This document shows positions 2,983-53,069 of a stretch of 64,000 bases of DNA, one piece after another. The stretch lies in the NCBI GenBank assembly GCA_006503475.1, contig RSEH01000211.1, positions 21,713-85,712 of the forward strand. The letters are read 5' to 3'. Source of the DNA: Stentor roeselii. Lineage: Eukaryota > Ciliophora > Heterotrichea > Heterotrichida > Stentoridae. The first letter of the stretch is position 1. Each line of letters begins with the position of its first letter. A program made the translations under genes and the position numbers. The notes under the pieces were generated by a model. The model searched no databases. It saw only the letters and a program-made list of their open reading frames with translations, and was not told where the DNA came from.

Positions 2983-3012
2983 AGTTAAAATTATAAAAAA
3001 ATCATTAAAGTT

Positions 3013-3117
3013 CTAATTTTCCTTCTCAATATTAAAATAAATCTCTTTAATTTCTTCAATATTCAACCAAATCTCTTTCATTTCCTATTCCCATTAATTT
3101 CAATGATTTTCCTCCAT
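3013..3117 (-). pseudogene. Decayed partial copy of the 5' end of the adjacent tail-anchored gene
   Basis: On the minus strand this stretch starts ATGGAGG and keeps AATCATTGAAAT and, further on, GAGATTTA...AATATTGA(A/G)AAGGAAAAT, which match codons 1-25 of the gene ending at 2982. Two bases are missing after the third codon, so the copy reaches TGA after five codons. The A/T-rich leader before the ATG is also shared (TTAAAATTAT on the plus strand). It fills most of the 146 bp between the intact gene and the LRR-ankyrin stop codon. Confidence 0.6.
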
Positions 3118-3128
3118 AATTAAAATTA

Positions 3129-4901
3129 TTAAATGAAAACATGATTCAAGTCATTATGTCCTTTCACTATTCCAAGTTCCAAGGGAGTAAGTCCTTTAGA
3201 GTCAGTAGACCGACAATCACTTCCACAGTCAATTAAAAAGTTAACAATATTGAGCAGTCCATTTTTGCAGGCATAATGAAGAGGAAGTCGTTGTTTCTCA
3301 TCTAAACAATTGATAGTCAGTCCAAGTCTGATCACTTTTTTCAGTTTTGCCTCGTTTCCTTCAATCACTGCCCTGTGAACTGCAGTTCTTTTCCTTTTTA
3401 GTCTTTACTTCAGGTCTGAAGAATAAGGATTTGTCCCTTTTGATAACAGGTACTCGGCGCATTCGAAGTTTCCGAATGAACAAGCGATTAAAAAAGCGTT
3501 TTCTCCTTTGGTCTGAGTGGTGATTACGTTTCTTTTATCTAGTTGAACTGCTTTTCGCAGAAGGTATTGCAGAAGTTGAAGGTTTCCTGTCCTGGATGCG
3601 AACATTAATAGGGTTTCTTGGAGTTTTATGTCGAAAGAGTTGAGATCGTATCCTGTTTCTATCAATTTTTCTAGGATTTTAGAATAGTTTCGGTTTCCTG
3701 ATTTGAATATTTCTTCGATTTCTACTATTTTTAATTCGGTTTCGGATTTTGATGATGATTTTTCATTTTTACATATTCCAGCCTCATCATCATTAAAACT
3801 TTCATCAAACCTATTCCTGAACTCCCTGATCAACCTTTCACTTTCCTGATCCCTTTCACTAGGCAATCTACTATTCGCAGGTTTTGTAATTTCCATTTTA
3901 ACTTTCAAAACAGCAAAAATCAAGTCCTTAACTTCCAGATTTTCATAGTTTTCAGCAAGTTTTTCAAAAGTCCTGGCAAGTATCTTCGGATCAGCATTAA
4001 AAATATATTTCTTATCAAAAAGTCCTCTAATATCAAAAGAGGCGAGATCAAGAAAGTCCCAAGTTTTAACAAACAATTCATTATGACTTTCCAACCGATT
4101 AAAACTGATCTCAACTTCTTGAATCCTGCTGAAATTAAAAGTCCTTGACTTGCCTTCTCGAACTGCAATAGCCCTGACAAGTTTCCAGGCCCCTTGAGCA
4201 GTAATAAGATTAAAATTCAAATTAACAACTTTCAAAGTCCCTGAAACATTTGCGATGATCTCAGCGATGACCTCAGCTCCTAAGTCAGTGATCAAGTTGC
4301 CTTCAAGTTGGATATTTTCAATATTCTGATGGTTTTTCATGATTTTTTGAAGGGGAAAAACGTGATCATCAGTCATGTCCAGGTGGTTTAGTCTCAGTTC
4401 AGTCATTTTTTCATCTGAAAATAAAGACTTTATCGTGTTTAACAAGCAGATTTTCGTTGATCGAATAGTTTCTATTGAAAGTTCTGAGTTTTCAATTAAA
4501 ACTTTCGCTTTTCGCAGATAGTCAAGAACATGGGAAAGTTTTTCATCAGTTTCATGAAATTTTTTCTTGAAAAATTCGACTTTTTTCTGAGTGTCTTTTA
4601 GACGAGCTTCAAGAGAATGGGAGTAAAATTGGGATTGCTTGATTTTCTTTGTTGCTTCGGAAATCTCTCCGAGGTAAGAGTCTCGCCATTTTGACTCGTT
4701 TTTTAGACGTTCTTCGAGGTAGACTAGTTTTATTTGGAGGTCTTCGTTTTTCTTTTTAAGATCCAGGATTTCTTGAAAGGTTTCTGCACTTTTTAAGATT
4801 TACTTTTCGGTTGTTGGCTGATTTGAGTTTACCAGGAATGTTCGGGATAGACGAGAATTTGATCTGGAATTCGCAGGACGCTTATGAAGGGCTCTTATCA
4901 T
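3129..4901 (-). CDS. Coiled-coil, leucine-rich repeat and ankyrin repeat protein (three exons)
   Basis: Three exons (4901-4804, 4788-3409, 3393-3129) join through two 15-nt introns to give 580 residues. The start MIRALHKRP is the first ATG after an A/C-rich leader. Residues ~35-150 form a Lys/Glu-rich coiled coil. Next come RI-type leucine-rich repeats (LRLNHLDMTDDH; IQLEGNLITDLGAEVIAEI; VNLNFNLITAQGAWKLV), then an acidic/Ser linker. At least four ankyrin-type repeats end the protein (ETLLMFASRTGNLQLLQYLL; ENAFLIACSFGNFECAEYLL; TAVHRAVIEGNEAKL; LPLHYACKNGLLNIVNFLI). Without the second intron the last two ankyrin repeats are lost, and splicing restores the consensus TAVHRA, which supports the model. 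It is probably a scaffold; no orthologue is named. Confidence 0.85.
3394..3408 (-). other. 15-nt intron in the LRR-ankyrin gene
   Basis: On the minus strand this reads GTAAAGACTAAAAAG. It contains an in-frame TAA, and removing it fuses two ankyrin repeats in frame (phase 2). Confidence 0.9.
4789..4803 (-). other. 15-nt intron in the LRR-ankyrin gene
   Basis: On the minus strand this reads GTAAATCTTAAAAAG. Its TAA interrupts an otherwise open frame, and removal gives a continuous frame back to the ATG at 4901 (phase 2). Confidence 0.85.
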
Positions 4902-5103
4902 TTAGGATGATTAGTAATAATTAGGATTTAATTGAAAGGTTTTAGTTTTTATGGGTTTTTTATGTTTGATAAGGATGGATTGATAATTGAAAGATTTTTT
5001 ATGGAATTATTAAGGAGATTTTTATTGAGGAGGTAATCAGAGTTGTAGAGAGTCTGAAAGAGAAGTTAGGAGAAAGTTTATTGAACAGACTTAAAATATT
5101 CTA

Positions 5104-5658: not shown

Positions 5659-6694
5659 TTTTATCTTTACTATAAAAGTTAAAAGCAGAGTCAATCGAAT
5701 CAAATTTTCCTTCATTCAAAGCCTTTAAAAGTTCATCCTGCAGTCTTTTCAATTCCCAAGGTCCTCTACAGAGAAGTACAGAAAATACCTGAACTGCCTT
5801 TGCTCCCATTTTCACTCTTTCTAAAATTTCTCTTCCATCCCAAAGTCCTCCAAAGCTAATAACTTCAAGTTTTCCACCTGTTTGACTCACTACTTTTTTC
5901 AAAATTTCCCGAGAAAGTCTTACGTCGTCTGAAGAGTCCCCGACGATGATTCCGTCGATTCCTAATTCGATGCAAGTTTGGACAAGAGCTTCTGTGTCTT
6001 GCCACTCGCAGTCGATTTTCACGTATATCGGGACGTAAAGCCTGCGAATCTTTCGGTCGTAGAAGTCCAGAATGTCTGACTCGAATGCTGCGATTAGACC
6101 CATTTCGAAGTTACGCTCGTTTACGAGTTTTTCGAGAAGTCTGCGAAATCTGAAGGGCCTTTGGTAGAGCTTTAGGTCTTTTCCTGGAGCACTGCAAAGG
6201 TTCACTGTGAAGAAGTCGGCTAGGTGGTAGAATTCCATGAGTAGGTATAAATAGTCGTCGTCTAGAAGGTGAACCATTGTGAAAAGGTTTTCTTGGAGAA
6301 TGTGAAGATTTAAACCTCTTGGACCTATTTTGAAGTGCTTTAGGTATTTTTTTAACGGGAATAAACCTGTGCTGGATATTGGACAGTTTTGGTTTATACT
6401 CGTTTCAGTGATTTCGTAAGGGGTTTTGTTGAAGGATTCTGTGGATTGTACTATTGGACCGATCTCTATGAATGAGTGGCCTTGTTCAAGCAAAGGAACG
6501 AAATTCATTCCATTTATATCAAGCCCTGCACTAAGCCCAATTGGAGACTTTAAATAAGAGTTGAACGCTTGAGTTTTTAGCTTTGAGTCCAAAGGCAGAG
6601 GTTCCGTAGGAATAAAAAGCTGAAGCCATAGCGATTTAAACAACAAACCGGGAAAGTAGTCTCTAAACACGGGATAAAAAGAAGCAGCTCCCAT
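5651..6694 (-). CDS. DHODH: Dihydroorotate dehydrogenase-like flavoprotein, divergent
   Basis: The 347-residue protein follows the class 2 dihydroorotate dehydrogenase fold order: PIGLSAGLD (family PxGxAAGFDK), FIEIGPIVQST, TVNLCSAPGKDL in place of VNVSSPNTxGL, PIYVKIDCEW, DGIIVGDSS, VISFGGLWDGREILE, and AKAVQVFSVLLCRGPW. Class 2 enzymes oxidise dihydroorotate to orotate with FMN and pass electrons to quinone in pyrimidine synthesis. Several usually invariant residues differ: the FMN-contacting Lys after GxD is Ile, the Asn of SPNT is Gly, and the NTT motif is GDSS. The Ser three residues after the Asn is kept. It may be inactive or act on another substrate. It has a hydrophobic N-terminal stretch (FPGLLFKSLWLQLF) as in membrane-associated members. 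Confidence 0.82.
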   Translation of the reverse strand: MGAASFYPVFRDYFPGLLFKSLWLQLFIPTEPLPLDSKLKTQAFNSYLKSPIGLSAGLDINGMNFVPLLEQGHSFIEIGPIVQSTESFNKTPYEITETSINQNCPISSTGLFPLKKYLKHFKIGPRGLNLHILQENLFTMVHLLDDDYLYLLMEFYHLADFFTVNLCSAPGKDLKLYQRPFRFRRLLEKLVNERNFEMGLIAAFESDILDFYDRKIRRLYVPIYVKIDCEWQDTEALVQTCIELGIDGIIVGDSSDDVRLSREILKKVVSQTGGKLEVISFGGLWDGREILERVKMGAKAVQVFSVLLCRGPWELKRLQDELLKALNEGKFDSIDSAFNFYSKDKND

Positions 6695-6745
6695 TTTTGA
6701 TTGTAGCTGAATGTCACTTGTTTAGACTAAGTAGAAGATGATTTA

Positions 6746-6958
6746 TTAAAATACTGAGACCCGCACCCCACCTTTATCGTAAGTCCTCGCCTGTTGAGGC
6801 GCTCTTGACTTTTCAGAGACCAAAGCTTTCAGGATCTCATCTTTTGTGACTTTTTTTTTATACTCGTCTCCTACTGCGAAGTCTTCTTTGATGACTGTCT
6901 TGATTTCAGACCTGTTAACACCTCTTTGACGTAAACAGTTCATTTCAACGTTTCCCAT
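6746..6958 (-). CDS. Small conserved-looking protein, unknown
   Basis: This 70-residue ORF opens with ATG and starts MGNVEMNCLRQRG, with a basic, polar body (TVIKEDFAVGDEYKKKVTKDEIL) and a C-terminus QQARTYDKGGVRVSVF. It sits 51 bp upstream of the DHODH-like gene on the same strand, after a G/T-rich plus-strand leader like other minus-strand genes here. Gly2 could be myristoylated, but position 6 is Met rather than Ser/Thr, so this is weak. No domain recognised. The last 25 bases of the flank are the only promoter-like sequence seen. Confidence 0.5.
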   Translation of the reverse strand: MGNVEMNCLRQRGVNRSEIKTVIKEDFAVGDEYKKKVTKDEILKALVSEKSRAPQQARTYDKGGVRVSVF

Positions 6959-7170
6959 TATTTATTGGACTGGATAAATTTACTATTTTATTAAGAAACT
7001 AGGTGGAAGAATTTTTGGTTTTTTTGAATGTTTTTTTGGGTTTAAGGGGTCTTTAGATGGTTTTAAGTTATTGGATTTATTGGAGAAATGTTGAGAAAAG
7101 TTTAAAAGTTAATTGATTTTTCTGTAAGGATCTGAATGGTTTGAATATCTATTGAAATGTAGATAAATGC

Positions 7171-7233: not shown

Positions 7234-7293
7234 CACCAAATCCCCTGTAAAAATTCCCCTACTCCCTAAACCCGGTAAAACTATTCCAACCTG

Positions 7294-12392: not shown

Positions 12393-15041
12393 TTAAAACT
12401 CAAAATCCCAATCTTTATCATTTCTATCCTTTTCAAATTGTTTTCGATCATCTTCATATTTCAAAATAAATTTTCCTAAGTCTTTCTGCATTAAAATACT
12501 CGACTTAATCAATCTGCTATAGTCCTCAACATCTGGTTTAAAAGGTGGATGGACATTTTTTTCTATTAAACAGTTAAAACTGATAGAAATAAACCAAACA
12601 TCCTTTTTGATACTTTCTATACTTCCTCTACAAGCAGGTGTATGATTAAGTAACTTTTGAACAAGTTTCACAACATGATTATTTTTCAATGTTTGCGGTA
12701 AAGTAAGTTTCCCATTGATAATCAAATTATAAACTTCCATCGGGTCATTTTCATATTCTCCCCAAGGTACCTTATTGCATAAAATTTCATAAATAATGAC
12801 TCCAAGGCTCCAATAGTCCGCTTCAAGTCCATATCCTAAACCTTTGATGACTTCAGGAGCCATATAATGAGTACTTCCTGCAATTGAATAGGTCCTGCCC
12901 TGAATTACTTTCGCTAATCCAAAGTCAATCAACTTGGGGTACCCGTCTTGATCGATGATGATATTTTCTGGCTTAAGGTCGCGATATGCAACTTTTCTTT
13001 CATGTAGATATTCAAGAATCAAAACAAGACAAGAAACATAAAATCGGGCACTTTCTTCTTCCCATAACTTGAAACGTCGAAGTAAGTCGAAAAAGTCGAT
13101 GCCTTGGACAAGCTCCATCACGAAATAAACTCGATGAGGGTCTTTAAAGGTCTTTACGAGCTTTACGATGAAAGGATGATCGAGCATCAAAAGGATTTTC
13201 TTTTCTTGGATCAGGTATTTTTGGATTTGGTGAGTTGTTATTTTGGACCTTGATACGGTTTTCAATGCGTATAAGTGCTTTGTTTTGGAATTGTATACAG
13301 TGAAGACGTTTCCGTATGTGCCTTTACCTAATCTTCTTAAGATTTTTAAGTCTTTTAAAGATACTGAGTGGTTTTGAAGGTCGATTCTTTTGAGGATCAT
13401 TTCATGTGTTTTTTCTGTGATTAGATCTAAAAAGTCCTGCTTTTTGAGAACCCAACATATACACCCTTTAGATATAACAGTGGCAGTCCTCGTTTCATCA
13501 AAAATCAAAGATCTTTCTCCAAAGTAATCATGTCTAACCATCTCCCTTACAAAGTTATTCCCAACATTAACTACCACCTCTCCCTTTTTTACAATATACA
13601 ACTTTTCTCCCTCTTCAAATCGGTTAAAAATAACTTCATCTCTGCTAAACCTCTCAATTTTCAGTTTTCCAACCAAAGACTCAAGTTTATCCCTTGAAAT
13701 ATTCCTAAAAATATTGATTTTTTCTATAATTTTTAAAACTTTATTCATTTTTACAGTTTTTCTAAACTCTTTCCCAAGAACTTCCTCAATTTTCTGAGCT
13801 GAGATACTCGCAACAACAGTTTCATCAAGTATCATAATTTTTTTTAAATATTTCTTTGAATTATGTTTAAACATATCCTCTTCTCCAATAATTTCAAATT
13901 TCTTCAGTATTTTTTTGTTATATAAAACTTCACCTTTAAGAATAAAAACAACAGAAAATCCTTCTTCTTGATTATTAATGATGAAAATTTCGTTTTTATC
14001 TAGATGTTTGATTTCAACGGCATCAACAATTTTTTCTATTTGATTTTTATAAAGGTTAGAAAAATGTTTACTTTTTTCCATTGAAATTTGTAAACTGTGG
14101 TTGAATAGTAGGTATTCGAAATCAGGTCCAAGTAAACTTGCTATTTCCTTTAAGTTTAGACTAAGAAGGGTTACTTGATTGATTGCGTCTACAGAAGCTG
14201 TGCGAATTGTTTTGTATATTAAGGCTTGTTCTCCGAAGTAATCTCCTGGTCCTAATGTTCTTTGCTGGACTCCATCGACACTCACCAAAACTTGACCTTT
14301 TTTAACGAAATATATCAAACTTCCCTTGTCCTTTTCACGGAGTACCCTTTGTCCAGGCCCGAATTCACGAACAACCAAAGCACTTATCAAAAAATCTTGC
14401 TGATACTCTGAAAGTTTATTAAAAAAATGAAAGTTCATTAAAAATTCCTTACTTTCCTCTAATTTTTCATTTGAAATCAACATAATTGCCTCTTTAAAAT
14501 AATCTCTTTTCAATACCCAAAATTCAGTTTTTTCTAAAGTTTTCATAGTTGAGGTGCTTTTTGAGTTCAAGAAAAGAGCCGATTCACCGAAATGTCCATT
14601 TTTTGAAATTATTGCTTTTTGTTGGTTATTCAGAAGGACTTCAACAGACCCTGACTTGATTATGTAAAAGTGTTGAAAACAATCTCCTTGAGCGTAAATT
14701 ATTTTTTTTCCTTCAAATACGACAGAATTGAATGAATGGGTAAGGTTCGTTAGGTGGGATGGGGTTAAAGAGCTGAAGATGAAATGGGAAGATAGGATTT
14801 TAAAGACCTCAGACTTTTCTTTTTCTGAGATTGGAATTGCTGATTCGATTTCAGCCTGCTCTGATTGAAAATTATTCAGACGAGGGTCAAAAAATGCTGA
14901 CTTCTGCTTGGTTAATCTTCTGTCTGATGAGAATTCTTCGATCATTGTTGCTAGCCTTGAGCTTGAAAACCGCTTGGTTCCTTGTGGTGAGAGCCTGGTC
15001 ATCTCAGGACTTTTCGAAGGTTTCAGCTTTGAACAACCCAT
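12393..15041 (-). CDS. PKG: cGMP-dependent protein kinase with four cyclic-nucleotide-binding domains
   Basis: 882 residues: a Ser/Arg-rich N-terminus, four tandem cNMP-binding domains (~res 65-180, 185-300, 310-430, 435-550) and an AGC kinase (~565-815) with the AGC C-tail. This is the architecture of alveolate PKG. Domain 2 (FGEQALIYKTIRTASV) and domain 4 (FGERSLIFDETRTATV) keep the full phosphate-binding cassette including Arg. Domain 1 keeps FGESAL but has STSTMKT where the Arg should be. Domain 3 (GEEDMFKHNSKKYLKK) is degenerate. Kinase motifs are complete: GKGTYGNV, ALK, YRDLKPEN, DFGLAK, APE. The gatekeeper is Met (FVMEL). The activation loop reads SIAGSTHYMAPE. It begins MGCSKLKPSK, an N-myristoyl/palmitoyl-type start, so membrane attachment is likely. 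Confidence 0.95.
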   Translation of the reverse strand: MGCSKLKPSKSPEMTRLSPQGTKRFSSSRLATMIEEFSSDRRLTKQKSAFFDPRLNNFQSEQAEIESAIPISEKEKSEVFKILSSHFIFSSLTPSHLTNLTHSFNSVVFEGKKIIYAQGDCFQHFYIIKSGSVEVLLNNQQKAIISKNGHFGESALFLNSKSTSTMKTLEKTEFWVLKRDYFKEAIMLISNEKLEESKEFLMNFHFFNKLSEYQQDFLISALVVREFGPGQRVLREKDKGSLIYFVKKGQVLVSVDGVQQRTLGPGDYFGEQALIYKTIRTASVDAINQVTLLSLNLKEIASLLGPDFEYLLFNHSLQISMEKSKHFSNLYKNQIEKIVDAVEIKHLDKNEIFIINNQEEGFSVVFILKGEVLYNKKILKKFEIIGEEDMFKHNSKKYLKKIMILDETVVASISAQKIEEVLGKEFRKTVKMNKVLKIIEKINIFRNISRDKLESLVGKLKIERFSRDEVIFNRFEEGEKLYIVKKGEVVVNVGNNFVREMVRHDYFGERSLIFDETRTATVISKGCICWVLKKQDFLDLITEKTHEMILKRIDLQNHSVSLKDLKILRRLGKGTYGNVFTVYNSKTKHLYALKTVSRSKITTHQIQKYLIQEKKILLMLDHPFIVKLVKTFKDPHRVYFVMELVQGIDFFDLLRRFKLWEEESARFYVSCLVLILEYLHERKVAYRDLKPENIIIDQDGYPKLIDFGLAKVIQGRTYSIAGSTHYMAPEVIKGLGYGLEADYWSLGVIIYEILCNKVPWGEYENDPMEVYNLIINGKLTLPQTLKNNHVVKLVQKLLNHTPACRGSIESIKKDVWFISISFNCLIEKNVHPPFKPDVEDYSRLIKSSILMQKDLGKFILKYEDDRKQFEKDRNDKDWDFEF

Positions 15042-16238: not shown

Positions 16239-18101
16239 ATGTCTTTTTCACACTTCAAAGAGGGAAACTTCAAAGCAGCAATATCAGAGCTCGAAAAGCA
16301 GATCCCCGAAAAGCCAGAAGAATCAGACAACCTAGAAATAGCTCGTTACTACCAATCCGGTTGCAAAGACACATCCGAATTGCTGTCCAAGCTCGAGTCC
16401 CTAAAGAAAAAACCATTCAAACTCTACAACCAATCAGTCCTTCTTTACTACAAAGAGCAATACGGCACAGCAATCAAGATTCTCGAAGAACTCGTGAAAA
16501 TGCCAGATTTAACCTGTGAATATCTGACTTTCAAAGCAAACATCCTGCTGATAGAGTCATATTTAGCCTTAGACCTTCTCACAGAAGTAAAGCCTTTACT
16601 TTCTAAACTAGAAGAACCAGAGATCTTATCAACGACAAAAGAAATCCCAGCCAATAATTTCTTTGCTTCTCTTATTCTAGGCGCCTGGTCAGAGGAAAAA
16701 TGTGATGAAGATGTTTCGACTAACGAGCTTCTTTTCGTTGCGAATATCTTAAAGTGTCGATTTCACTTAAAACAAGGAGAATCTGAACAGGCCAAGTCTT
16801 GTTTAAACCTCGCTGAAAGCTTCTGGGCTCGAATAAACCTGGAAAATTACGAACCGAATCTAGTGAAACATCTTCAAACTCAGCAGGTTGTTATAAAAAA
16901 CTATCTTTATGCACAGATCGCGTATACCGAGGGAAATATGAACGCGACTTTACAGCAGTTGAATCAAGCCCAAATTGAAGTTTTGCCGTTACTTGGAGAG
17001 AAACAGTCTCATCCTTCTTGCACTCCAAGTCGAGAAAAACTGAGTCATCCGATTTATCATTATAATAATTTGGGATGTGTTCATTTACGACTGGGAAAAC
17101 CAAGACTTTCAAGGTTTTACTTCACGAAAGCTTTAGAAACTCTGAAGCCTCATAATCAAGTTGACACATCGAAGCCTCTTAGTACTGTGACTTATCATTC
17201 TTCGCAGAGAAGAGCTGACTTGCTTTATAACTCTGCTTTAGCACTGCTTAACTCTGGGAAACCGAAACATGCTTTGGATTGTTTGCAGGAAATTTGCCCT
17301 TTAATGCAAAATAAACCCTTGTTTTGGTATAGAATTGCTCAGTGCTATGTCATGATTCATCTTAAAAATCTTTCTACTGGAAGACGTGAGATGATTAGTG
17401 ATGTTTGTCAGAATCAAATTGGAAAAAAATATTATCTTCCGGCGAAGGTCACTTATGCGTTTAAAGAAGAGGAAGATAAGGAAAGTGAAAATCCTTTAGA
17501 ACAGGCTGCTATGTGTTTGAGAAATGCACTTAGCTTGTGTAAGGAGGAAGATATGAAGATTAACTTTTTGTTACTTTTGTGTTATGTTTGTATGAACACT
17601 CAACCGCAATGTGCCCTGTCAGCAGCTCAACAGCTTCTACACATGGAAGTAACAGAAAGCCAAAGATTCATCGCCTCAATGTACGCCTCAGAAGCCCTTT
17701 TAATCCTAGGCAAGCCAAGACAAGCAATCGAGTACGTTTCCCACATTCCAAAAGAGTTAAAATTAAAATGTCACTCAACCCTAAGTCCCTCCGGTGCAGT
17801 TTTCACAGAAGAAGTAAGCAGCAGGTTCGTCCAAAGCATAAACTTAAGTTCAGCACATTTAAACAACGGTAACATTCCACAAGCGCAGCAAGCCTTAAAC
17901 GTAGCTTTGAACTATTTCAACTTAAGCCTGCAACCAAGCAACCAGCCGAGTCTTCCAGTTCCTGCAGCGATTCTCAATATTGCAATTTACATTTCATTGA
18001 AACTAGGAAATCATTCACAAGCTGAACATTTTCTGAGGTCTCGGCAGATCTATCAAGGAATGCAGTACAACAAGATGACTGAACCAAGTTTAAATAGATA
18101 A
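16239..18101 (+). CDS. CNOT10: CCR4-NOT complex subunit 10 homologue (TPR protein)
   Basis: 620 residues made largely of TPR-like helical hairpins. Diagnostic of CNOT10 are the YHYNNLGCVHLRLGKPRLSRFYFTKAL segment (in parts, ~res 273-300), ADLLYNSALALLNSGKPKHALDCL (~330-353), and PLFWYRIAQCYV shortly after. These match the YxNNLGxxHxxxxK...FTKAL / LYNxGxxLL...RLA pattern of the family. In animals CNOT10 pairs with CNOT11 in a module of the deadenylase complex that shortens mRNA poly(A) tails. The start MSFSHFKEGNFKAAISELEKQ is itself a TPR helix, supporting the start. A sharp base-composition switch occurs inside the CDS at ~17595, without any frame break. Confidence 0.88.
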   Translation: MSFSHFKEGNFKAAISELEKQIPEKPEESDNLEIARYYQSGCKDTSELLSKLESLKKKPFKLYNQSVLLYYKEQYGTAIKILEELVKMPDLTCEYLTFKANILLIESYLALDLLTEVKPLLSKLEEPEILSTTKEIPANNFFASLILGAWSEEKCDEDVSTNELLFVANILKCRFHLKQGESEQAKSCLNLAESFWARINLENYEPNLVKHLQTQQVVIKNYLYAQIAYTEGNMNATLQQLNQAQIEVLPLLGEKQSHPSCTPSREKLSHPIYHYNNLGCVHLRLGKPRLSRFYFTKALETLKPHNQVDTSKPLSTVTYHSSQRRADLLYNSALALLNSGKPKHALDCLQEICPLMQNKPLFWYRIAQCYVMIHLKNLSTGRREMISDVCQNQIGKKYYLPAKVTYAFKEEEDKESENPLEQAAMCLRNALSLCKEEDMKINFLLLLCYVCMNTQPQCALSAAQQLLHMEVTESQRFIASMYASEALLILGKPRQAIEYVSHIPKELKLKCHSTLSPSGAVFTEEVSSRFVQSINLSSAHLNNGNIPQAQQALNVALNYFNLSLQPSNQPSLPVPAAILNIAIYISLKLGNHSQAEHFLRSRQIYQGMQYNKMTEPSLNR

Positions 18102-18106
18102 GACTA

Positions 18107-18340
18107 GATTGGGATTTGGATATTATTATGAATGTTTGAAGAATTTTAAGAATTTCAGGAAATGATTGGGATTTGGATGTTATTATGAATATTGAGAAGA
18201 ATTATAAGAATTTTAGGAAAAGATTGGGATTTGGATATTATTATGAATATTTGAAAAGAATTATAAGAATTTAAGGAAAAGATTGGGATTTGGATATTAT
18301 TATGAATATTGAGAAGAATTATAAGAATTTCAGAGAAAAA
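18107..18340 (+). repeat. Four tandem copies of a ~58-bp repeat; last copy holds a start codon
   Basis: Copies begin at 18107, 18164, 18222 and 18281, each opening GATTGGGATTTGGATRTTAT and followed by TATGAAT, GAAGAAT..AAGAATTT, AGGAAA-like segments (unit lengths 57, 58, 59). The fourth copy contains the ATG at 18302 and the first ~12 codons of the next gene. The unit therefore looks like a duplicated 5' end. Copy 2 has the same ATG (18187) but its frame stops after 29 codons. Confidence 0.85.
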
Positions 18341-19144
18341 AGTGAAATTTCTAAAGACTTGCAAGGTTTTAGTTTAGATCAGAAGGTTGATGGTTTAAGA
18401 GGAAATCATCGGCATTGTAAGACTTTATCTTCAGATTTTCTTGATAGGACTCGACCTGAAAAGCAGTTGTCCAGGTTAAGACTGATGCAGAGGAAGAAGG
18501 AAAGGATTCAGGTAATGTGTAAATAGATTCAAAGTATCAGTAAACAACTTCAAAACCCTTCTGAAAATGATTTTTTTTCAATAAATAAACCGAATCCTCA
18601 GTCACATTTGAATCAGAATCTTTGGATGGACCTGAAAAATGTTCCTACAAGCAGATTGAAACATGTTTTACCTGTTCATGTCAGGGAAAATGACTTGAAA
18701 GGACTTAACTCTATTGTGGCTCGAGGACTGGTTGAAATGAAAATTAAGGAAAGTCTTGAGGATCAGAAACTGGTCAATAAAATTAAAGGCCGATTGTTTA
18801 ATATTCAGAGACATTCTTACTATGTTAAATTGGAGCAAAGGGCTGGAATTTCTAAGGTTCGTAATCGAGATGTTGATCAAGGGGTTTTCGGGTATATAAA
18901 GTCGTATAAAATATCGCCGAGACTGCTTTCTTTAAGTAATCCTCACAAGGTTTCTTTTGATGAGTTTGATAAAAGTGATTACCGAGGACTGATCTCGAAA
19001 GACTACCCAAAAATAATAAACCAATCAACCCGTCACGATTTCCAAGATAATCCAAAGCCCATTCCACTAAAATCCGAATTAGAAGAAACAATTCAATCAA
19101 TATCAGACTTCGAGAAAAAGCTTTTAATAATTTCAAACCCATGA
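18302..19144 (+). CDS. Unknown protein, two exons, 275 residues
   Basis: Exon 1 (18302-18511) and exon 2 (18527-19144) join through a 15-nt intron with perfect frame continuity. The start MNIEKNYKNFREKSE is in the last copy of a 58-bp tandem repeat. The protein is basic and mostly polar: LSRLRLMQRKKERIQ at the exon junction, NQNLWMDLKNVPTSRLKHVLP, GLVEMKIKESLEDQKLVNKI, and a C-terminal FEKKLLIISNP. No domain recognised. TGA is the stop. It converges on MPC1 with 14 bp between stops. Alternative in-frame codons upstream of 18302 are not ATG. Confidence 0.7.
18512..18526 (+). other. 15-nt intron
   Basis: GTAATGTGTAAATAG, phase 0, with the 3' TAG as an in-frame stop if retained. Removal joins two long frames exactly. 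Confidence 0.88.
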
Positions 19145-21325: not shown

Positions 21326-21362
21326 TTTGAGTTTATTTTGTTCATGGAAGATTTAAGAGTGA

Positions 21363-21566
21363 TTTTTTTGGATTTTTTGGAAATTTGGGATTTTTTGGAT
21401 TTTTAGGGTTTTTTTTGGAATTTTTTTGGGATTTTTTTAGGGATTTTTGGATTTTTTTTGGGTTTTGTTGTGATTTTTTGGGTTTTTGGGTTTTTTGGGT
21501 TTTTTTTGGATTTTTTTTGGGTTTTTTGGGATTTTTGGCGTTTTTGGGTTTTTTTTTAGGAAATGG
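21363..21566 (+). repeat. Low-complexity T/G tract (C-free)
   Basis: About 200 bp consist almost only of T and G with runs such as GGATTTTTTGG and GGGTTTTTTTTGG, few A and almost no C. On the minus strand it is an A/C tract immediately upstream of ARMC9. The forward translation is Phe/Gly-only and is not a protein. Confidence 0.85.
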
Positions 21567-35583: not shown

Positions 35584-36222
35584 CTAATCTGAAATTTCAC
35601 TCGAACTACAAAATACCTGCGCAGAGGTACTAGATGTGTTATGAGGTTTCGCTTGTTTCAACTCAACAGGTTTCAAAAGTTTCGGAATAAGCCTCTCGGC
35701 AGGCTTCAACTCACTCGAAAATGCTTTTTTAAACGATTCTGATGGAAAACTGGAGTAAGCTGAACTAGAGCCTCTCTTTTCACATTCATCGACAGTGAAA
35801 ATATGTGACTGGAAGCCCAAAGTTGTTGGCTTTCTTTCTTTTGTACAAAGCTCTTTTCCTACAAGTTTCTTCGCTGGAGGCTGCCGGTCGAATTTGAAGG
35901 ACTTGCCCGCTGACTTGTATTGACTTGTGTGTCGGCATGAGTGACTTCCACTTGATTTCTTTTGGAAGTTTGAATGAGAAGTTGAACGGTTTGGAGTGTT
36001 TTGTCGGTTTGAGTCTTTTGCTTTAACGACTTTGAAGTTTTCTAGATGAAGTTTTAAACCTGGAACTTGTTTTGAGACAGGAAAACCCAGGGCTTGAAGG
36101 GATTTGTAAGAGGAGATCCCGTGATAGATTAGCTTTTTGAGAATAGCTGGCCAATCCTGAGCAGGGAAATCCTGAAGAAAACTCTTAATAAGACCATCAG
36201 AATAAAAATCTTCAATCTCCAT
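35584..36222 (-). CDS. Unknown protein, 212 residues, globular head and basic Ser-rich tail
   Basis: The first ATG is at 36222 (MEIEDFYSDGLIKSFL); the open frame upstream starts with GTG. Residues 1-60 look globular and helical (DFPAQDWPAILKKLIYHGISSY in parts), the remainder is a Ser/Lys/His-rich basic region (HSCRHTSQYKSAGKSFKF) ending AQVFCSSSEISD. No domain recognised. It lies 11 bp upstream of the ABHD17 gene on the same strand, so they may be co-transcribed. It is divergent from PUS3. Confidence 0.65.
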   Translation of the reverse strand: MEIEDFYSDGLIKSFLQDFPAQDWPAILKKLIYHGISSYKSLQALGFPVSKQVPGLKLHLENFKVVKAKDSNRQNTPNRSTSHSNFQKKSSGSHSCRHTSQYKSAGKSFKFDRQPPAKKLVGKELCTKERKPTTLGFQSHIFTVDECEKRGSSSAYSSFPSESFKKAFSSELKPAERLIPKLLKPVELKQAKPHNTSSTSAQVFCSSSEISD

Positions 36223-36333: not shown

Positions 36334-37278
36334 ATGGAACCAATGAAAAAGATAAAACTTATCCCATGGTCCGAATGCCCAAAGCTTCACATGGCCTTCA
36401 AGTTTTCCTACATCGGCTTCAACTACGACGTAATCCACGATTAGGGCGTAGCAAGTCAACAGAACACAAAAAACACAATCGAAGAGCATTTATTCAAAGC
36501 TCTTCTTAGAACCAACTTGATAGAAGAGCGCAAGTCCTGCAACTACTCACTCTGCGGTCGTACAGATAAAGGAGTAAGCGCTTTAAACAACGCTTTTTCA
36601 ATAACCCTTCGTTCAAGAGGCGCTCACCAGGCAGGAGAGTTCAATTTTTGCAAAATGCTAAACAGTCAACTTCCAGACGACATCAGAATAACAGCTTTTT
36701 CTGTCGTTCCTCATCATTTCGACGCACGGTTCAGTTGTTTATACAGAGAATATCGTTATCATTTCATCATCGGCTCGAAAGACCTGAACCGCATGTCTGA
36801 AGCTTGCAAGTTGTTTGAAGGGGTTCATGATTTTAGGAACTTTTGCAAGGAAGACCCGGAAAAACATAGAAAAACTGAAAGAAGAGTTTTGAATTGTCGT
36901 GTTGAAAGCACTGGACTGGTTGGAACTGTTGTTGTTGTTGGGTATTCGTTTTTGTGGCATCAGGTCAGATGTATGGTTGCGGTTTTGTTTAAGGTCGCTG
37001 ATGGACTTGAATGCCCTGATATTGTGACTAGTATGCTTCGACATCTTGGACAAAAACCTCAGTATGAAATCGCTGGTGAAACTGGACTTGTGTTGTATGA
37101 TTGTGCGTTTGAAACTGTTGAGTTTCAGCCATGCCCTGTTGATGAAGTCGCTCGGCCGCTTAGTTTTATTCAGGATGACCTTACTGTTAAACTGCAAGTC
37201 TTGAACATGTTAACCAGAGGCTACAACAGGTCAGGACTTGAAAAGCCAGGTAAAAAAATTAAGCTAAAACCTAAGTAG
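36334..37278 (+). CDS. PUS3: tRNA pseudouridine synthase, PUS3/DEG1 type (TruA family), two exons
   Basis: Exon 1 (36334-36429) and exon 2 (36445-37278) join through a 15-nt intron, giving 314 codons-scale protein of ~309 residues. Splicing produces FKFSYIGFNYD|GVASQQNTKNTIEEHLF, the expected TruA N-terminus. The catalytic Asp is in CGRTDKGVSALN (~res 71). Later: RFSCLYREYRYHF, HDFRNFCKEDPEK, and FLWHQVRCMVAVLFKV. PUS3 makes pseudouridine at positions 38/39 of tRNAs. The unspliced frame has an in-frame TAG in a conserved motif, so the intron is essential. The stop abuts the convergent gene's stop directly. Confidence 0.93.
36430..36444 (+). other. 15-nt intron in PUS3
   Basis: GTAATCCACGATTAG, phase 0. 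It sits inside the conserved TruA motif and carries the in-frame TAG. Position 10 is G here, with A at 11, unlike the other six introns. Confidence 0.93.
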
Positions 37279-40078: not shown

Positions 40079-40828
40079 TTACCTATTTACTAAAACATTA
40101 ACCGACTCCCAGATACTCTCCACATCTTTCAGCATATTTTCTATCTTTTCATATTCCTCAACACAAACTTTACTCCATTTTCCAATCGAGTCTTCTTTTT
40201 CAACACCTTCAGTCATAAACATCTGGATCTTCTCCTGGTATGTTTTTTTAAAGATTTTTAAGGATTTTATGAAGTTTTCTAGAGCGTTTTTATAGTTTTT
40301 CAGCAGGTTTTGATCTGGAAGATCTGTTTCTTGTAGTTTTGGAGCCATTGATGATACTCGCTTCACCTCCTGGCTCCAGTAGTCTAAAGTTATCTGAAGC
40401 TCTTGAGAGATTGAAGTTGATGATGAATGCTTTGGAGGGAAGTTGGAAAGGAAGAGCTTTGTTTGTTTGTCGAAAATTGAAAAGTTTGAACTGATGAAGT
40501 TCAGGTTTCGCTCTAGTGATTCAAGTGGAAATGAAGGGGTTAAGAGCATTAGAAGGGAGATTAGGTGTGAGATTGAGGTTGATTGTGGACATGTACCTTG
40601 GATTATTTCGGATGATGAAGGTATTCCGAGATCGGAGTAGATTGTAGTCAGACGGGCGATCTGAGTCACTCCAGGCAAGTTCAAATCAGGATCCCTTAAA
40701 ATTCCAGGCTCAAAAATTTCCAATACCATTTCCTGAAACTCAATCCTTTTCTGAGTAGGTAAAACAATATCCAAACTATCCTCAATATCAAATCCAAATC
40801 CTTTTAAAAGTATTTCAAGTCCTTCCAT
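40079..40828 (-). CDS. Unknown helical protein, 249 residues
   Basis: The start is taken at 40828 (MEGLEILLKGFGFDIEDSLD). The frame stays open upstream to 41134, but that part overlaps the 2,064-residue gene and reads Arg/Leu-rich nonsense. It is helical, with a C-terminal coiled coil (NYKNALENFIKSLKIFKKTY; EEYEKIENMLKDVESI). A motif CPQSTSISHLISLLML lies in the middle. No family recognised; its size and helices would fit a subunit of a cytoskeletal complex, but this is only a guess. Confidence 0.65.
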   Translation of the reverse strand: MEGLEILLKGFGFDIEDSLDIVLPTQKRIEFQEMVLEIFEPGILRDPDLNLPGVTQIARLTTIYSDLGIPSSSEIIQGTCPQSTSISHLISLLMLLTPSFPLESLERNLNFISSNFSIFDKQTKLFLSNFPPKHSSSTSISQELQITLDYWSQEVKRVSSMAPKLQETDLPDQNLLKNYKNALENFIKSLKIFKKTYQEKIQMFMTEGVEKEDSIGKWSKVCVEEYEKIENMLKDVESIWESVNVLVNR

Positions 40829-48003: not shown

Positions 48004-48126
48004 GGAGGATTTTTACAAGACTATTATTTAATTGTAGTAAATGAATCATAGTTGTGACGGTTTTAGAAAACATAAATTCAAAAATTAGGAATTTTAATGG
48101 CCAATCATTCAGGTTCAGTTGTAATA

Positions 48127-49626
48127 ATGGGAAATATTTGCTCAGGCAAAGTTACACTAGACTATTCCATAATTTTACCGAAACAGCCGTTAAAGCTATA
48201 CAGCAAAGAAGACCTTCAATTCAACTCAGGAACCTTCGTTCAAGAAAACCACGAATCCTTTTCCTCAATATACAAACTTCACTCTAAACCAATCGGTTCA
48301 GGAGCCTTCGCAGAAGTCTGGCTTTGTGACCACATGCGTTCAGGCGAAACAAGAGCAGTAAAGATTCTTCACAAGTCCGGAGTCTCAGAGCACGACATTC
48401 GTATGCGTTCAGTCTTCCTAGAAGTAGAGATTCTGAAGACACTTGACCATCCAAACGTTCTAAAAGTTTACGAGTACTTCGAAGACGAGGAAGATTACTA
48501 CATCGTCATGGAGTACTGCCCCGGCGGCGACGTCTTCGACAAGCTGGAGTCAGTCGGGACGTTCACTGAAAGATACGCTGCGAGAATCATGAAATACCTT
48601 CTCAGTGGCCTTGCTTATCTTCACAGTCGTCATGTGGTGCATCGTGATATCAAACCTGAAAACCTTCTCATTACAAATGGACAGAGCTTTGACGAGTTTT
48701 CTATTAAAATCATTGACTTCAATGTAGCAACTCGCAAGGAAAATGAGAAGTTGTCAGGAGTCACTGGGACTACGGACTATATGGCTCCTGAAGTCTTCAG
48801 AGGAGTTTATGATGAAAAGTGTGACTTGTGGAGTGCTGGGGTCATTCTTTATATGCTGGTCAGTGGATGTCTTCCTTTTCCTTGTCCTAATGAAGAAGAA
48901 GCTGAAAGAAATATCTGTAATGGCAAGTTTTCATTTCCTAATGATATCTTCGCGAAGGTTTCTAAAGAGTGCAAGGATTTAATCACGAAACTTCTGAATA
49001 AAAATCAAAATTCACGTCCTTCGGCTCTTGAAGCACTTTCACATCCGTGGTTTAAGCTCAGTCCTGATCGATGTGATAATCTTACCATGCAGAAAACCTT
49101 GACTCGCATGAAAACTGTTGGAAATCAGGGAAAACAAGGAAAACTTCAGGAATTGTTTAAAACTTTTATTATTTCTCAGGTATCTGCAAATAGTTCTACA
49201 AGGAAATTGGAAAAAGTCTTTGCGGTTATTGACCAGAATAAAGATGGGGTCATTAGTGAAGAGGAACTTCTTGCACAACTTTCTAAGGAGATGAGCTTGG
49301 ATCAGGCTAAGGCGCAAGTCACTCAGATTTTTGAGAAAATGGATAGTGATGGGAGTGGGGTTATTGAGTATTGTGAGTATTTAAGGATCGCTATTGAAGA
49401 AGAGTCATTGTTGAGCAGGGAAAACTTGAGGAAAGCTTTTTGTTATTTTGATAAGGATAATAGTCAGACTATTGAAAAAGGGGAACTGGTCGCCTGGCTT
49501 TCGACAGGTGACATGATCCCAGAATCTATAATCCAGGATCTAATCGAAGAAGCCGATCTGAACGGCGACGGTACAATCGACCTCGAAGAATTCGAACAAT
49601 TATTAGCAGACAAGTTCGACCTATAA
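48127..49626 (+). CDS. CDPK: Calcium-dependent protein kinase with DFN in place of DFG
   Basis: The start MGNICSGKV at 48127 is preferred over the ATG at 48097 because Gly2/Cys5/Ser6 form a myristoylation-palmitoylation signal. 499 residues: kinase domain ~50-315 (GSGAFAEV, AVKIL, HRDIKPENLL, IIDFNVAT, APE, DLWSAG), an autoinhibitory/linker region, then four EF-hands with loops starting at ~367, 404, 441 and 476. Loops 1, 2 and 4 are canonical (DQNKDG, DSDGSG, DLNGDG); loop 3 (DKDNSQ) has Gln in place of Gly6. The DFG Gly is Asn. CDPKs decode Ca2+ in alveolates and plants. Confidence 0.95.
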   Translation: MGNICSGKVTLDYSIILPKQPLKLYSKEDLQFNSGTFVQENHESFSSIYKLHSKPIGSGAFAEVWLCDHMRSGETRAVKILHKSGVSEHDIRMRSVFLEVEILKTLDHPNVLKVYEYFEDEEDYYIVMEYCPGGDVFDKLESVGTFTERYAARIMKYLLSGLAYLHSRHVVHRDIKPENLLITNGQSFDEFSIKIIDFNVATRKENEKLSGVTGTTDYMAPEVFRGVYDEKCDLWSAGVILYMLVSGCLPFPCPNEEEAERNICNGKFSFPNDIFAKVSKECKDLITKLLNKNQNSRPSALEALSHPWFKLSPDRCDNLTMQKTLTRMKTVGNQGKQGKLQELFKTFIISQVSANSSTRKLEKVFAVIDQNKDGVISEEELLAQLSKEMSLDQAKAQVTQIFEKMDSDGSGVIEYCEYLRIAIEEESLLSRENLRKAFCYFDKDNSQTIEKGELVAWLSTGDMIPESIIQDLIEEADLNGDGTIDLEEFEQLLADKFDL

Positions 49627-49677
49627 CCACATCCGATGACTAACTAACCCTCACAATTATCCAAACAATAACAAAAT

Positions 49678-50724
49678 ATGGAACAGTCCTTAAAAGCCGA
49701 AGTTCTTCTAAAAATCCCGAATGTGAAGCTTTACGAGATCTGCAACAACCAAAAGAAAAAAATAATAAAAGGAGAACTAAAAGTTCTCCGTTTAAAAAAA
49801 GAGAAAATTTTTTTACTTCTCGTTGGTGAGTATTCATATTCCTTATCAAAAGACCTTCAAACAATGCGAAGTTCAATCAATCAATACGTCCTTCCCAACA
49901 TCGACGGTTTCCTCGGAGTCCTCATTCCAGACAACGCCGACTACGAAGTCCTAGACAAGCTGGAAACCCTTTTACGAGAAACGACTGACTTTCTCATTTC
50001 CAAGCATTCAAGAACCGCAGCAGACATTCAAAGAAGTGCAACATTTGACTTAGAAGCTGCAGACCACATGCAAAATCAGTCAAAAGCCCGGAAATTCAGT
50101 CAACTTCTCGAGACAGGAGGGGAACATATAAAAAATAGCTTGATTCGTGCAGCGACTTTCACTTCTAGTCATATTCGAAGAGGTTCTGAGTTTTTAAAGT
50201 CGAAAATCAAGTCAAAAGGATCGACTGACTCGCTTAGTTCGGATTCGGGAGATGAGGAGAAAAAAGAAGATAGAAAAAAAGAGATTACTATGAAAGGATT
50301 GAAAATTGTCAGCTCGGCTGCACTTGTTTTGTCTAAAGCGGTCGTTGTTGGAGCTGTTGCTACGAGTAAGGAAATTGGGAAGTGGGTCGCTCAGCATTTT
50401 GAACAGAGTCAGACTTCTAGGGAATTGGAAAAAAATCAGGCTTATCAGCAGGCGAAAGTAGTAGGTTCTTCTGGTATCAAGGCTGCTGCTTCTGTTTTTG
50501 ATGGGCTTGAAGAAGCACTGGTTATTTTAGGACGATCTGGAGCTGAGGCTGCTGTAGACGTAGCCGAGCACAAATACGGAAGCAAAGGCAAAAAACGAGC
50601 AGGAAAAGCTGTAGAGGTGATATCAGACGTAGGCCTAATCTGCAGAGAAGTAAATAAAATCGGAGTAAGAACGGCAGTAGAGGCAGCAAAAGAACTATCA
50701 AAAGAAGAAAACTCAAAGAAATAA
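49678..50724 (+). CDS. Spartin/senescence-domain protein
   Basis: 348 residues, 51 bp downstream of the CDPK on the same strand. The C-terminal ~150 residues match the senescence/spartin domain (Pfam senescence): GLKIVSSAALVLSKAVVVGA, SGIKAAASVFDGLEEALVIL, GAEAAVDVAEHKYG, GKAVEVISDVGLICREV. The N-terminal ~110 residues form a beta-rich module with FLGVLIPDNADYEVLD. A Lys/Glu/Ser linker (SKGSTDSLSSDSGDEEKK) lies between. Animal spartin acts on lipid droplets and endosomes, plant ERD7 in membrane remodelling under stress. A lipid-droplet role is plausible; the MIT domain of animal spartin is not seen. Confidence 0.88.
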   Translation: MEQSLKAEVLLKIPNVKLYEICNNQKKKIIKGELKVLRLKKEKIFLLLVGEYSYSLSKDLQTMRSSINQYVLPNIDGFLGVLIPDNADYEVLDKLETLLRETTDFLISKHSRTAADIQRSATFDLEAADHMQNQSKARKFSQLLETGGEHIKNSLIRAATFTSSHIRRGSEFLKSKIKSKGSTDSLSSDSGDEEKKEDRKKEITMKGLKIVSSAALVLSKAVVVGAVATSKEIGKWVAQHFEQSQTSRELEKNQAYQQAKVVGSSGIKAAASVFDGLEEALVILGRSGAEAAVDVAEHKYGSKGKKRAGKAVEVISDVGLICREVNKIGVRTAVEAAKELSKEENSKK

Positions 50725-50753
50725 ATCTATTCAATAACCCTTAGATAATCTAA

Positions 50754-53069
50754 CTAGACTTCCTCAGTTTTCTGCTCCGAAACATATCTTTTATACTCTT
50801 CGGTCTCTTCAAAAGGTCTCTTCCCCAAGATATCAATAAGATCCTTATGATTAAGTCTTTCAGATTCCATAAGTTTTTCAGCAAGTTTAATAATAAGTTC
50901 TCTTTTCTCATCCAACAAAGCCTTAGTCTTTTCCAAGCACTGATCAATGACACTTTTTACTTCCCTATCAAGTAAATCCTTAGTAGACTCACTATAATAC
51001 CTTTCATTCAAGTTATAACTGACCAATCCCGCATTTTTACTCATTCCAAAGTTTTCAATCAATGCCTGTGCAAGCTGAGTAGCTTTCTTCAAATCATCCG
51101 AAGCTCCATTAGTAACAGTTCCGAAAAACAGGAGTTCCGAGACCCTTCCTCCTAAGATCATGCAAATCCTATCAAGAAATTCCTGCTCATTGAACAACAT
51201 CGTCTCCTTCGGCAAGTTCTGAGCAAAGCCAAGAGAGCCTTTGCTTCTGGGCAAGATACTAACTTTAATAACAGGATCCGCCCCTTCCAAGAACCAGCCA
51301 GCAACAGCATGTCCAGCTTCATGATAACTGACGATTTTCTTCTCTTTAGGTGTTAAACGCTTGTTGCTTTCCGCTCCCAACATCACCTTCTCTGAAGCAC
51401 GTTCGAAGTCAACACTTTCAACAGACTCTTTCCCTTCTCGAGCTGCGAGAATAGCTGCCTCGTTGCAGACTTGTGAAAGGTCAGCTCCTGAAAACCCTGG
51501 AGTAAGAGCCGCCATTCTTTTCGCACATGCGTCGATGTCGAAGTCCTTTGAAAGTTTTATCGGAGCGAGGTGAACTTTCAGGATTTGTTCACGACCGTCA
51601 ATGTCAGGAAGGCCGATTTCAACGATTCTGTCAAATCGGCCTGGACGAAGCAGGGCGTTGTCGAGGGTATCCTGTCGATTAGTGGCAGCCATGACGACTA
51701 CAAAGGTGTCAGTTTGAAATCCGTCCATTTCAACGAGAAGTTGATTTAAAGTAGAGTCTCTTTCATCATTTTTAAAACGAGAGTCATCTCTTTTACGACC
51801 CACTGCATCGATTTCATCTATGAAAATTATTGAAGGCGCCTTTTCTCTTGCTTGCTTGAAAAGTTCACGAACCCGACTGGCACCGACCCCGACGAACATT
51901 TCAACGAACTCGCTTCCACTGGTCGCGAAAAAAGGGACTCCGGCCTCTCCAGCTGAAGCCTTCGCGAGTAAAGTTTTTCCAGTTCCTGGAGGACCGACAA
52001 GTAAAGCGCCTCTTGGCATTCTTGCTCCAAGTTTCGCGAATTTTTCAGGGTTTTTAAGGAATTCTACGAATTCTGAAATCTCACGTTTTGCTTCCTTTTG
52101 CCCGGCGACATCTTTGAAGGTGGTGTTGATTTTCTTGTCAGTGCCGTAGACTTTGAAGTTTGATTTGCCAAAGTTGAACATGTCTTTGAAAGGGTTTACA
52201 CCGCCTTGAGACTTGTTGGTCTTTGTGCGCATTGATGAAATTAGAAAGGCTAAAGAGATGAATAAAAGAGCCTGGCCTAATGATATCGATGTTGGCATGG
52301 CATCCCAGTTTGGACTGGTATCAGAAAGTTCTTGGAAACTTATTTTTATTGGTGGAATGTTTTCGCCCATTGGCTGTTTTGACTCGATCATGTTCACGAA
52401 TGAACTTACGTCTTGAAGTTTTATTGTTATGACGTCTTTGTAGTTTGAGTCTTGGCCTACTACTATTGCGTTGCTGTCTTTTCCTGTTGATTTCGAGGTT
52501 TTTATTGTGATGTACCGCACTCGACCTGATGAGACCTCGTTTATGAACTGGCTGAGACTTGATGAGCTGTGCTGATTCGAGGTCATGCCAGATATCCATG
52601 AACCGATTAAATAAGCTGCAAGTAGTGCAAATATAATGTTTTGATCGTTGTTGTTGTTATTGTTATTCTTCTTATCTGAACTTTTTTTCTTTTCATCTTC
52701 TTTTTTGTCACTTGACTTACTTGGCTTTGGAGGCTCTTGATTGACTTGTGAGTCTTTTTTGTCCTGAGGGTTTTCTTTAGAGTCTTTCACTTCACTTTGC
52801 TTTGATTCTTTTAAGTCTTTAGGGTCTTCTTTTTGTGGAGTTTGTGAAAGTTCTGGATCTGGGACTGCTGGCTTGTGTTCGGAAGGGTCTGGGTTGTGAG
52901 GAGGATTTGGAAGATCTTTCAATCTTTGTGAGTCTGGCTGATTAGATGATGGAGGTGGATGAATGGATGATTGTTTTTTGAAGAATTTCTCGAATCCTTG
53001 AGGAGGTTTTTGTTGGGTGAAGTTGCGGAAAAGTAAACTTGAAGTGCTTGCGAAGACTCTCCGAAACAT
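50754..53069 (-). CDS. AFG3: Mitochondrial m-AAA protease (FtsH/AFG3L2 type)
   Basis: 771 residues. The start [17 protein letters not shown] is an amphipathic mitochondrial presequence. Then a ~100-residue Pro/Lys/Ser/Asp linker with an Asn run (NNNNNNN), TM1 (~150, [15 protein letters not shown]), a small intermembrane domain, TM2 (~265, [14 protein letters not shown]), an AAA+ module with [11 protein letters not shown] (~360), FIDEIDAVG and the RPGRFDR arginine-finger region, and the M41 zinc protease with HEAGH (~580) and DDLKKAT. Known m-AAA proteases degrade and process inner-membrane proteins. Whether it forms a homo- or hetero-oligomer cannot be told. The stop is 29 bp from the convergent spartin-domain gene. 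Confidence 0.95.

Follow-up and report, generated by a model that had tools for sequence, protein, structure and literature searches.

Strand-asymmetric base composition is known from several systems. In mitochondria, G+T against A+C forms a single gradient per genome, with one direction, produced by deamination and governed by the time that a strand spends single-stranded, and human N-domains are of megabase scale, with upward jumps of skew at replication origins and ramps that span the domain. Here we describe a saw-tooth of plus-strand G+T content in a stretch of 64,000 nucleotides from Stentor roeselii (bases 21713-85712 of contig RSEH01000211.1, called C129 here; the whole stretch is referred to as the window), in which G+T falls at narrow points, termed drops, and rises between them in teeth. 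Unlike mitochondria, this nuclear genome carries many symmetric two-armed points, and unlike in N-domains, the ramp neither spans nor scales with the unit. The jagged asymmetry is not tied to single genes, in which it resembles human N-domains and the skews around yeast origins as they are presented in the available text of the sources (PMC4729899, PMC3320577 and PMC3459929).

The flanks of human meiotic hotspots offer a further comparison. The accessible part of the study by Hinch and colleagues (PMC7615360) describes C>N and A>N mutations on the forward strand left of the break, and a central ±100-bp zone without asymmetry. The polarity of the drops is like that of these hotspots, in which C and A are mutated on the forward strand on one side and G and T on the other; the human geometry, with the forward strand exposed left of the break and the reverse strand right of it over kilobase-scale flanks, would also fit the drops. 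The human signal, as that part of the paper presents it, consists of new or rare variants pooled over thousands of hotspots, whereas here it is a fixed composition at single sites that shapes codon choice, and the arms measure ~0.6 kb here as compared with 1-2 kb of resection on each side in humans. The landscape of internal eliminated sequences (IESs) in Blepharisma, as far as it is set out in the accessible text of PMC9942856, is similar in that an element occurs about every 1 kb, within genes as well as spacers, but the drops lack a clear TA signal, and that text describes no composition gradient for IESs. Among the titles and abstract openings of the open-access literature on strand asymmetry, ciliate hotspots and heterotrich codon usage, no earlier description of such a saw-tooth was found.

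Excess of drops over rises

A preliminary description of the window had reported a saw-tooth of G+T content with six named drops. We examined 364 kb, namely the window together with 200 kb of contig C40 and 100 kb of contig C339, from a source assembly of 44.4 Mb in 522 contigs, and found that the saw-tooth is present in the window and recurs on both other contigs. Genes were modelled with introns allowed only at 15 or 16 bases and with TGA treated as a stop. Steps were scored on a synonymous residual, obtained for all codons with a synonymous choice by subtracting from the G/T indicator of the third base the average for the respective amino acid and codon box. At z>4.5 in 150-bp scanning windows, 36 drops and 2 rises were detected, as compared with 0.2 and 0.4 after within-gene shuffling, and 250-bp windows gave 27 drops and no rises at z>6. 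In 600-bp windows the counts were nearly equal (36 drops and 33 rises at z>6), as expected from gradual climbs and sharp falls. Shuffling, which had been suggested as a check on codon composition, removed the steps, which are retained at synonymous third positions; what matters is thus the place within the gene, and codon content does not account for them. A plain caller of ATG-initiated open reading frames still yielded 31 drops and 2 rises (z>4.5, 150-bp windows), and an artefact of the gene finder was rejected.

For comparison, a bacterial-genome scan provided 35 loci filed under bacteria as controls. A set of 31 GC-matched bacterial loci (437 kb, GC 0.35) contained no drops and no rises at z>4.5, and 3 and 2, respectively, at z>4 in 150-bp windows; their autocorrelation was low, without the negative lobe found in the present genome. 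In 100 kb of E. coli, nothing exceeded z 4 in 150- and 250-bp windows, and one drop did so in a 400-bp window. Chance and protein composition are excluded as causes by the synonymous correction, the within-gene shuffles and the GC-matched bacterial controls.

The asymmetry was also seen in raw composition. Steps of at least 0.2 in G+T at 200 bp numbered 25 drops and 13 rises in the window and 45 and 19 on C40, and 240-bp steps above 0.25 numbered 7 and 1 in the window and 12 and 0 on C40; the raw excess in the window alone is therefore only moderate. A purine or GC effect was rejected, as the same 240-bp count on C40 gave 2 drops and 1 rise for purine and none of either for GC; the purine track in the window and on C339 also leans toward drops, more weakly. 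A matched filter (z>5.5, 200-bp scale) was clearest on C40, with 22 drops and 1 rise, and weaker in the window and on C339 (6 and 3 each). The third moment of the step statistic was positive in 30 of 37 ten-kb blocks. An unconstrained piecewise-linear fit under the strictest penalty returned 132 rising and 29 falling segments (change >0.15), with 106 downward and 19 upward jumps beyond 0.3; looser penalties gave 104/40 and 104/47. At 91 drops found from synonymous sites alone, G+T in spacers at 100-300 bp from the point was 0.64 on the left (298 bases) and 0.36 on the right (644 bases), and within 100 bp it was 0.57 and 0.43, respectively. The teeth are not everywhere, since fitted rising teeth cover 48.5% of bases.

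The six drops named in the preliminary description each lie 3 to 16 bases from a fitted drop (3762, 13461, 17603, 23225, 49488 and 50553), with synonymous z of 5.7-6.9. All six are inside predicted genes, of both strands; the preliminary description had placed four to five of its drops in coding exons. The strongest drops of the window, at 21558 and 7163, are both intergenic and had not been listed. These eight are given below, with G+T in the 60 bases left/right of each named position.

3762-3775, in the ankyrin-repeat gene 3129-4901 (minus strand); synonymous z 6.9; G+T 0.68/0.35 at 3775
13420-13461, in the cyclic-nucleotide-dependent-like kinase gene 12393-15041 (minus strand; Pfam kinase and cNMP-binding domains); z 6.2; G+T 0.67/0.38 at 13445
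17592-17607, in the TPR gene 16239-18101 (plus strand); synonymous z 6.9; G+T 0.72/0.35 at 17595
23225-23242, at the predicted 15-base intron 23226-23240 of gene 22269-23564 (plus strand); synonymous z 5.7; G+T 0.52/0.28 at 23241
49474-49518, in the kinase and EF-hand gene 48127-49626 (plus strand; Pfam); synonymous z 5.9; G+T 0.58/0.43 at 49500
50550-50556, in gene 49678-50724 (plus strand); synonymous z 6.7; G+T 0.67/0.37 at 50550
21558-21561, strongest drop of the window, between divergent genes; G+T change of 0.47 over 120 bp
7154-7165, very sharp intergenic drop between divergent genes; G+T change of 0.45 over 120 bp

Introns were rejected as the cause, as a predicted intron occurs only at 23241 among the six named points. 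The drop at 21558 stands at the end of a stretch of ~200 bases (21361-21563) in which G and T strongly predominate and A and C are scarce; the stretch lies directly upstream of an ARMC9-like gene on the minus strand.

Anatomy and placement of the drops

We localised 126 drops with an arm-shaped model, after removal of 3 of 129 as hits at the edge of the search range. For a held-out profile, one half of the codons served to find the drops and the other to measure them (148 events over the two halves); the residual was +0.19 just left and -0.18 just right of the point, reached zero near 550 bp and overshot near 700 bp. The profiles were closely similar in plus- and minus-strand genes, which bears out the earlier statement that the pattern reads the same on either strand and is not simply a matter of transcription polarity. 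Residual autocorrelation was positive to ~325 bp, minimal near 550 bp and zero by ~1 kb. When the 126 drops were sorted by distance to the next drop, the arms in short intervals crossed zero near the middle. In the 61 intervals of the 1.5-2, 2-3.5 and 3.5-20 kb classes, the arms reached zero by 600-800 bp and the residual stayed near zero afterwards, going down to -0.05 in the 3.5-20 kb class and falling again toward the far end in the 1.5-2 kb class. Because the arms end within a long interval, the feature is a point with two antisymmetric arms of fixed, resection-like length, and not a ramp scaled to its unit. The climb over ~0.7-2 kb in the preliminary description is therefore seen as a rise, but it is made of two arms (~0.55-0.7 kb) from neighbouring points, with a nearly flat middle where these are far apart.

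The reset within tens of bases likewise stands in part. Some drops are step-like, but sharpness varies, and a shared transition, estimated with marginalisation over position, had a logistic scale of ~24 bp (10-90% in ~100 bp), which was 43 log units better than a step; simulated perfect steps do not yield this scale.

The letters involved were examined by codon class. At two-fold pyrimidine sites of plus-strand genes, 30-200 bp from the drop, the T share was 0.82-0.83 on the left and 0.34-0.37 on the right, and at two-fold purine sites over the same span the G share was 0.43-0.44 and 0.20-0.22, respectively; minus-strand genes showed mirrored switches of both. These amplitudes are somewhat inflated, as the same data chose the drops; the held-out profile is the one given above. 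A C>T and A>G polarity that reverses across the point was found, as composition only, in both gene orientations. At four-fold sites on the G+T-rich and A+C-rich sides, the shares were 0.20 and 0.42 for A, 0.09 and 0.22 for C, 0.20 and 0.09 for G, and 0.51 and 0.26 for T, with little change in G+C. The C/T shift was largest with G or A as the next base and with A or T as the preceding one, and the A/G shift was strongest after T and before G and reversed before C. Where the sense strand is rich in G+T, M, V, A and G are commoner and P, S, T and H rarer. GC was slightly lower within 200 bp of drops (0.345 as compared with 0.37).

Drops are spread over genes and spacers, with 94 of 126 (75%) in genes (54 plus, 40 minus), which cover 78% of the sequence, and 32 in spacers. 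In a threshold-free profile of genes with at least 900 coding bases, the mean step was highest up to ~400 bp before start codons, and drops were also enriched around gene ends; mean sense G+T in such genes was low over the initial ~300 bp and high over the final ~400 bp. The claim that the pattern is independent of genes thus holds for the most part, with drops somewhat more frequent close to gene ends and in the ~400 bp that precede start codons, and the drops are not confined to gene 5' ends, a restriction that would have reduced them to leader composition. No two drops were closer than 500 bp, and 32% of the 123 inter-drop distances were 0.8-1.3 kb, as compared with 12.5 ± 2.9% at random; this peak must owe something to the mutual cancellation of overlapping arms and to the fitting penalty, which would hide close pairs. 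Drops also form domains on C40, with 5 of 74 in the first 60 kb beside the telomere and 69 in the following 140 kb. Despite its few drops, C40:1-60000 has a normal number of synonymous sites past the first 20 kb.

Paralogues gave a mixed picture. The tandem genes c339_41 and c339_43 are 48% identical, yet the strong drop of one is absent from the other, so that the site is not dictated by the protein. The profiles of 29 in-sample paralogue pairs correlated with a mean r of 0.30; several pairs at 45-48% identity had r near zero, and r of 0.5-0.9 was reached by some distant kinase pairs and by tandem pairs (47% and 57% identity), which is only partly explained. The common profile of the tandem pairs suggests that sites may persist for long.

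Possible causes of the drops

As an explanation for the polarity, arm length, strand symmetry, affected sites, recurrence and spacing demonstrated above, we tentatively favour the hypothesis that the drops are recurrent, stable germline break sites, probably meiotic. A narrow zone at each drop, fixed over evolutionary time, would be cut repeatedly on both strands of the inherited genome copy, and resection of 5' ends would leave 3' single strands of up to roughly 0.6 kb, of the plus strand on the left and of the minus strand on the other side. Through damage or error-prone refilling, C would become T and A would become G in the exposed strand, so that plus-strand G+T would be raised toward the cut and lowered beyond it. 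Over many generations, this would set synonymous codon choice, intergenic composition and, slightly, protein composition, and neighbouring zones ~1 kb apart would produce the saw-tooth. We infer that the zones are breaks, that these are germline and meiotic, and that mutation acts on the exposed strand. A double-strand break with 5' resection exposes the plus strand to its left and the minus strand to its right, the arrangement proposed here. The 'processing units' of the preliminary description would, in this form, be recurrent breaks with resection. Ciliate germlines are transcriptionally silent. Their mutation rate is very low, at 7.61e-12 per site per division for Tetrahymena in the available text of PMC5585995, and a low background could let break-linked mutation dominate. 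The genome has one match to the Spo11/TopoVI-A family domain and one to Hop2, which indicate gene presence only.

With greater reserve, we regard it as possible but doubtful that the letters of this genome carry a fine-scale map of germline breakage, with stable sites on the order of ten thousand or more (a figure extrapolated from 126 fitted sites in 364 kb) and two-armed scars of ~0.6 kb a side that override codon preference, bias protein and can be read, with no experiment, from one assembly. If so, the assembly of an uncultured protist could serve as a map of its breaks and recombination, comparison of paralogues and of relatives could show how long hotspots persist in evolution, and a mutational force would set local codon usage and amino-acid bias in ~0.5-kb blocks. 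Whatever the cause, work on codon usage, gene finding and molecular evolution in this lineage must account for the saw-tooth.

Several observations weigh against germline breaks. Drops occur at a nearly equal rate in genes and spacers, unlike the break hotspots of yeast, which are centred on promoters, and a distance peak near 1 kb is not obviously predicted by break hotspots. The neighbour-dependent shifts, which are strong, are not assigned to a known enzyme. Transitions at single drops were heterogeneous: a plain step was the best description of 25 of 126, and the broadest shape tested that of 36, which points either to differences in width or to imprecise placement of some drops. The search for a break-site motif around the drops gave no convincing candidate. 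AGTAC/GTACT occurred within ~10 bp of clean drops 8 times as compared with 2.5 expected, but AGTAC was rejected as a predictor of steps (mean step -0.007 over 467 sites), and AT-rich words had a small positive step that may reflect AT-richness alone.

A rather unlikely alternative is that the drops are junctions of IES excision, each tooth being one macronucleus-destined segment whose gradient arises from germline cutting or repair at the element ends or from another edge effect. IES excision in ciliates occurs in the somatic line, so that its effects would not be inherited, and the shared transition takes ~100 bp, not one base; the drops that are best fitted by a perfect step are those that agree with such junctions. 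The spacing and genic share reported above match those of Blepharisma, for which the accessible text of PMC9942856 gives 39,799 IESs on 41 Mb (~1 per kb), ~70% of them intragenic where genes cover 77%. TA was slightly commoner at the best-localised drops than in flanking controls (13 of 19 as compared with 0.50 within 5 bp, and 58 of 105 as compared with 0.49), in a test that is limited by localisation and biased to TA, as the G/T-to-A/C switch itself favours this dinucleotide. Within 12 bp, TA was at the control level (38 of 46, 0.83, as compared with 0.81, and 102 of 126, 0.81, as compared with 0.80), although the same text has about three quarters of Blepharisma IESs bounded by TA-containing repeats (PMC9942856).

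Other recurrent 3' single-strand ends or gaps at fixed sites, such as macronuclear breaks with telomere addition that are repaired from the numerous other copies, or chromatin-phased repair, seem unlikely to be the cause. They would yield the same arm geometry, but macronuclear changes are lost at each sexual cycle, and the inheritance would be wrong unless the lineage is largely asexual and the macronucleus itself evolves. According to the accessible text of PMC9942806, the 41 Mb of Blepharisma contain 46,705 potential alternative telomere addition sites, the majority of them supported by one read.

Strand-asymmetric mutation from many short units, as had been proposed, fits the data, but short replication units are poorly supported and we consider them very unlikely. 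Such units would have a keto excess on the leading strand, diffuse starts within the tooth and a fixed termination at the drop, like N-domains at a roughly thousandfold smaller scale. Fork polarity should scale with the unit, whereas the arms do not scale with the reset distance and the middles of long intervals are near flat; origins would be required about every kilobase; and the sharp jumps of human N-domains are upward and lie at origins. Keto-rich leading strands and jagged skew profiles are known (PMC4729899, PMC3320577), and a yeast study mentions skew jumps at some termination sites (PMC3459929), in the available text of these papers.

Transcription, gene architecture or codon selection is highly improbable, as the drop profile is closely similar in plus and minus genes with a sign that does not follow the transcribed strand, strong drops occur in intergenic DNA and several paralogues at 45-48% identity are uncorrelated, against which stand the G+T trend along genes, the step maximum before start codons and the correlated profiles of some distant kinase paralogues.

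Other drops and neighbouring genes

Further drops and two example teeth of the window are as follows.

1970-1971, in gene 1912-2547; synonymous z 4.3; segment edge
2680-2689, intergenic; raw steps and piecewise-linear fit
5058-5070, intergenic; raw steps and piecewise-linear fit
6444-6490, in the dihydroorotate-dehydrogenase-like gene 5749-6694; synonymous z 5.3 at 6456
14270-14279, second drop in the kinase gene 12393-15041, ~820 bp from the first; synonymous z 4.4
18980-18988, in gene 18302-19144; synonymous z 6.2
19780-19783, in the ARMC9-like gene 19475-21325; synonymous z 4.5
30580-30582, in gene 30346-31008; synonymous z 4.9
36132-36151, in gene 35584-36222; synonymous z 5.3; 0.32 over 240 bp
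37171-37190, ~1.05 kb from the preceding drop; synonymous z 5.5
40659-40668, in gene 40079-40828; synonymous z 6.0
48056-48140, at the start of gene 48127-49626; synonymous z 4.6
56433-56504, in the divergent spacer before gene 56655-57707; synonymous z 5.1
48141-49490, tooth with G+T residual from -0.24 to +0.34; piecewise-linear fit
49491-50550, tooth with G+T residual from -0.34 to +0.27; piecewise-linear fit

A long AT-rich, mostly gene-free region (57881-61560) was fitted as one flat segment without a tooth.

The sequence has features of heterotrich macronuclear DNA, namely CCCTAACA telomere repeats, found at the start of contig C40, and introns of 15-16 bases, of which 84 at 15 bases and 5 at 16 bases, the only lengths permitted, were predicted in the 364 kb. 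Blepharisma is described in the available text of PMC9942806 as having tiny introns and the same telomere repeat, with TGA encoding tryptophan. TGA is not used in this way here, and the genetic code is standard: TGG accounts for 670 of 71,121 codons, TGA terminates 25 of 156 gene models (in which it was set as a stop), and TGA occurs in none of 135 kinase matches, some of which contain TAG or TAA.

A scan of viral contigs found no relatives. The protein-kinase family is very large, with at least 135 scored kinase-domain matches genome-wide. The cyclic-nucleotide-dependent-like kinase at 12393-15041 of the window has paralogues at C129:2256-4700 and C129:9193-11844 (73% and 60% identity) and 51 scored genome matches, itself included, at E<=1e-60. 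On C40, the gene at 102375-104692 and its adjoining gene are tandem copies, two of which are 100% identical across 298 aligned residues.

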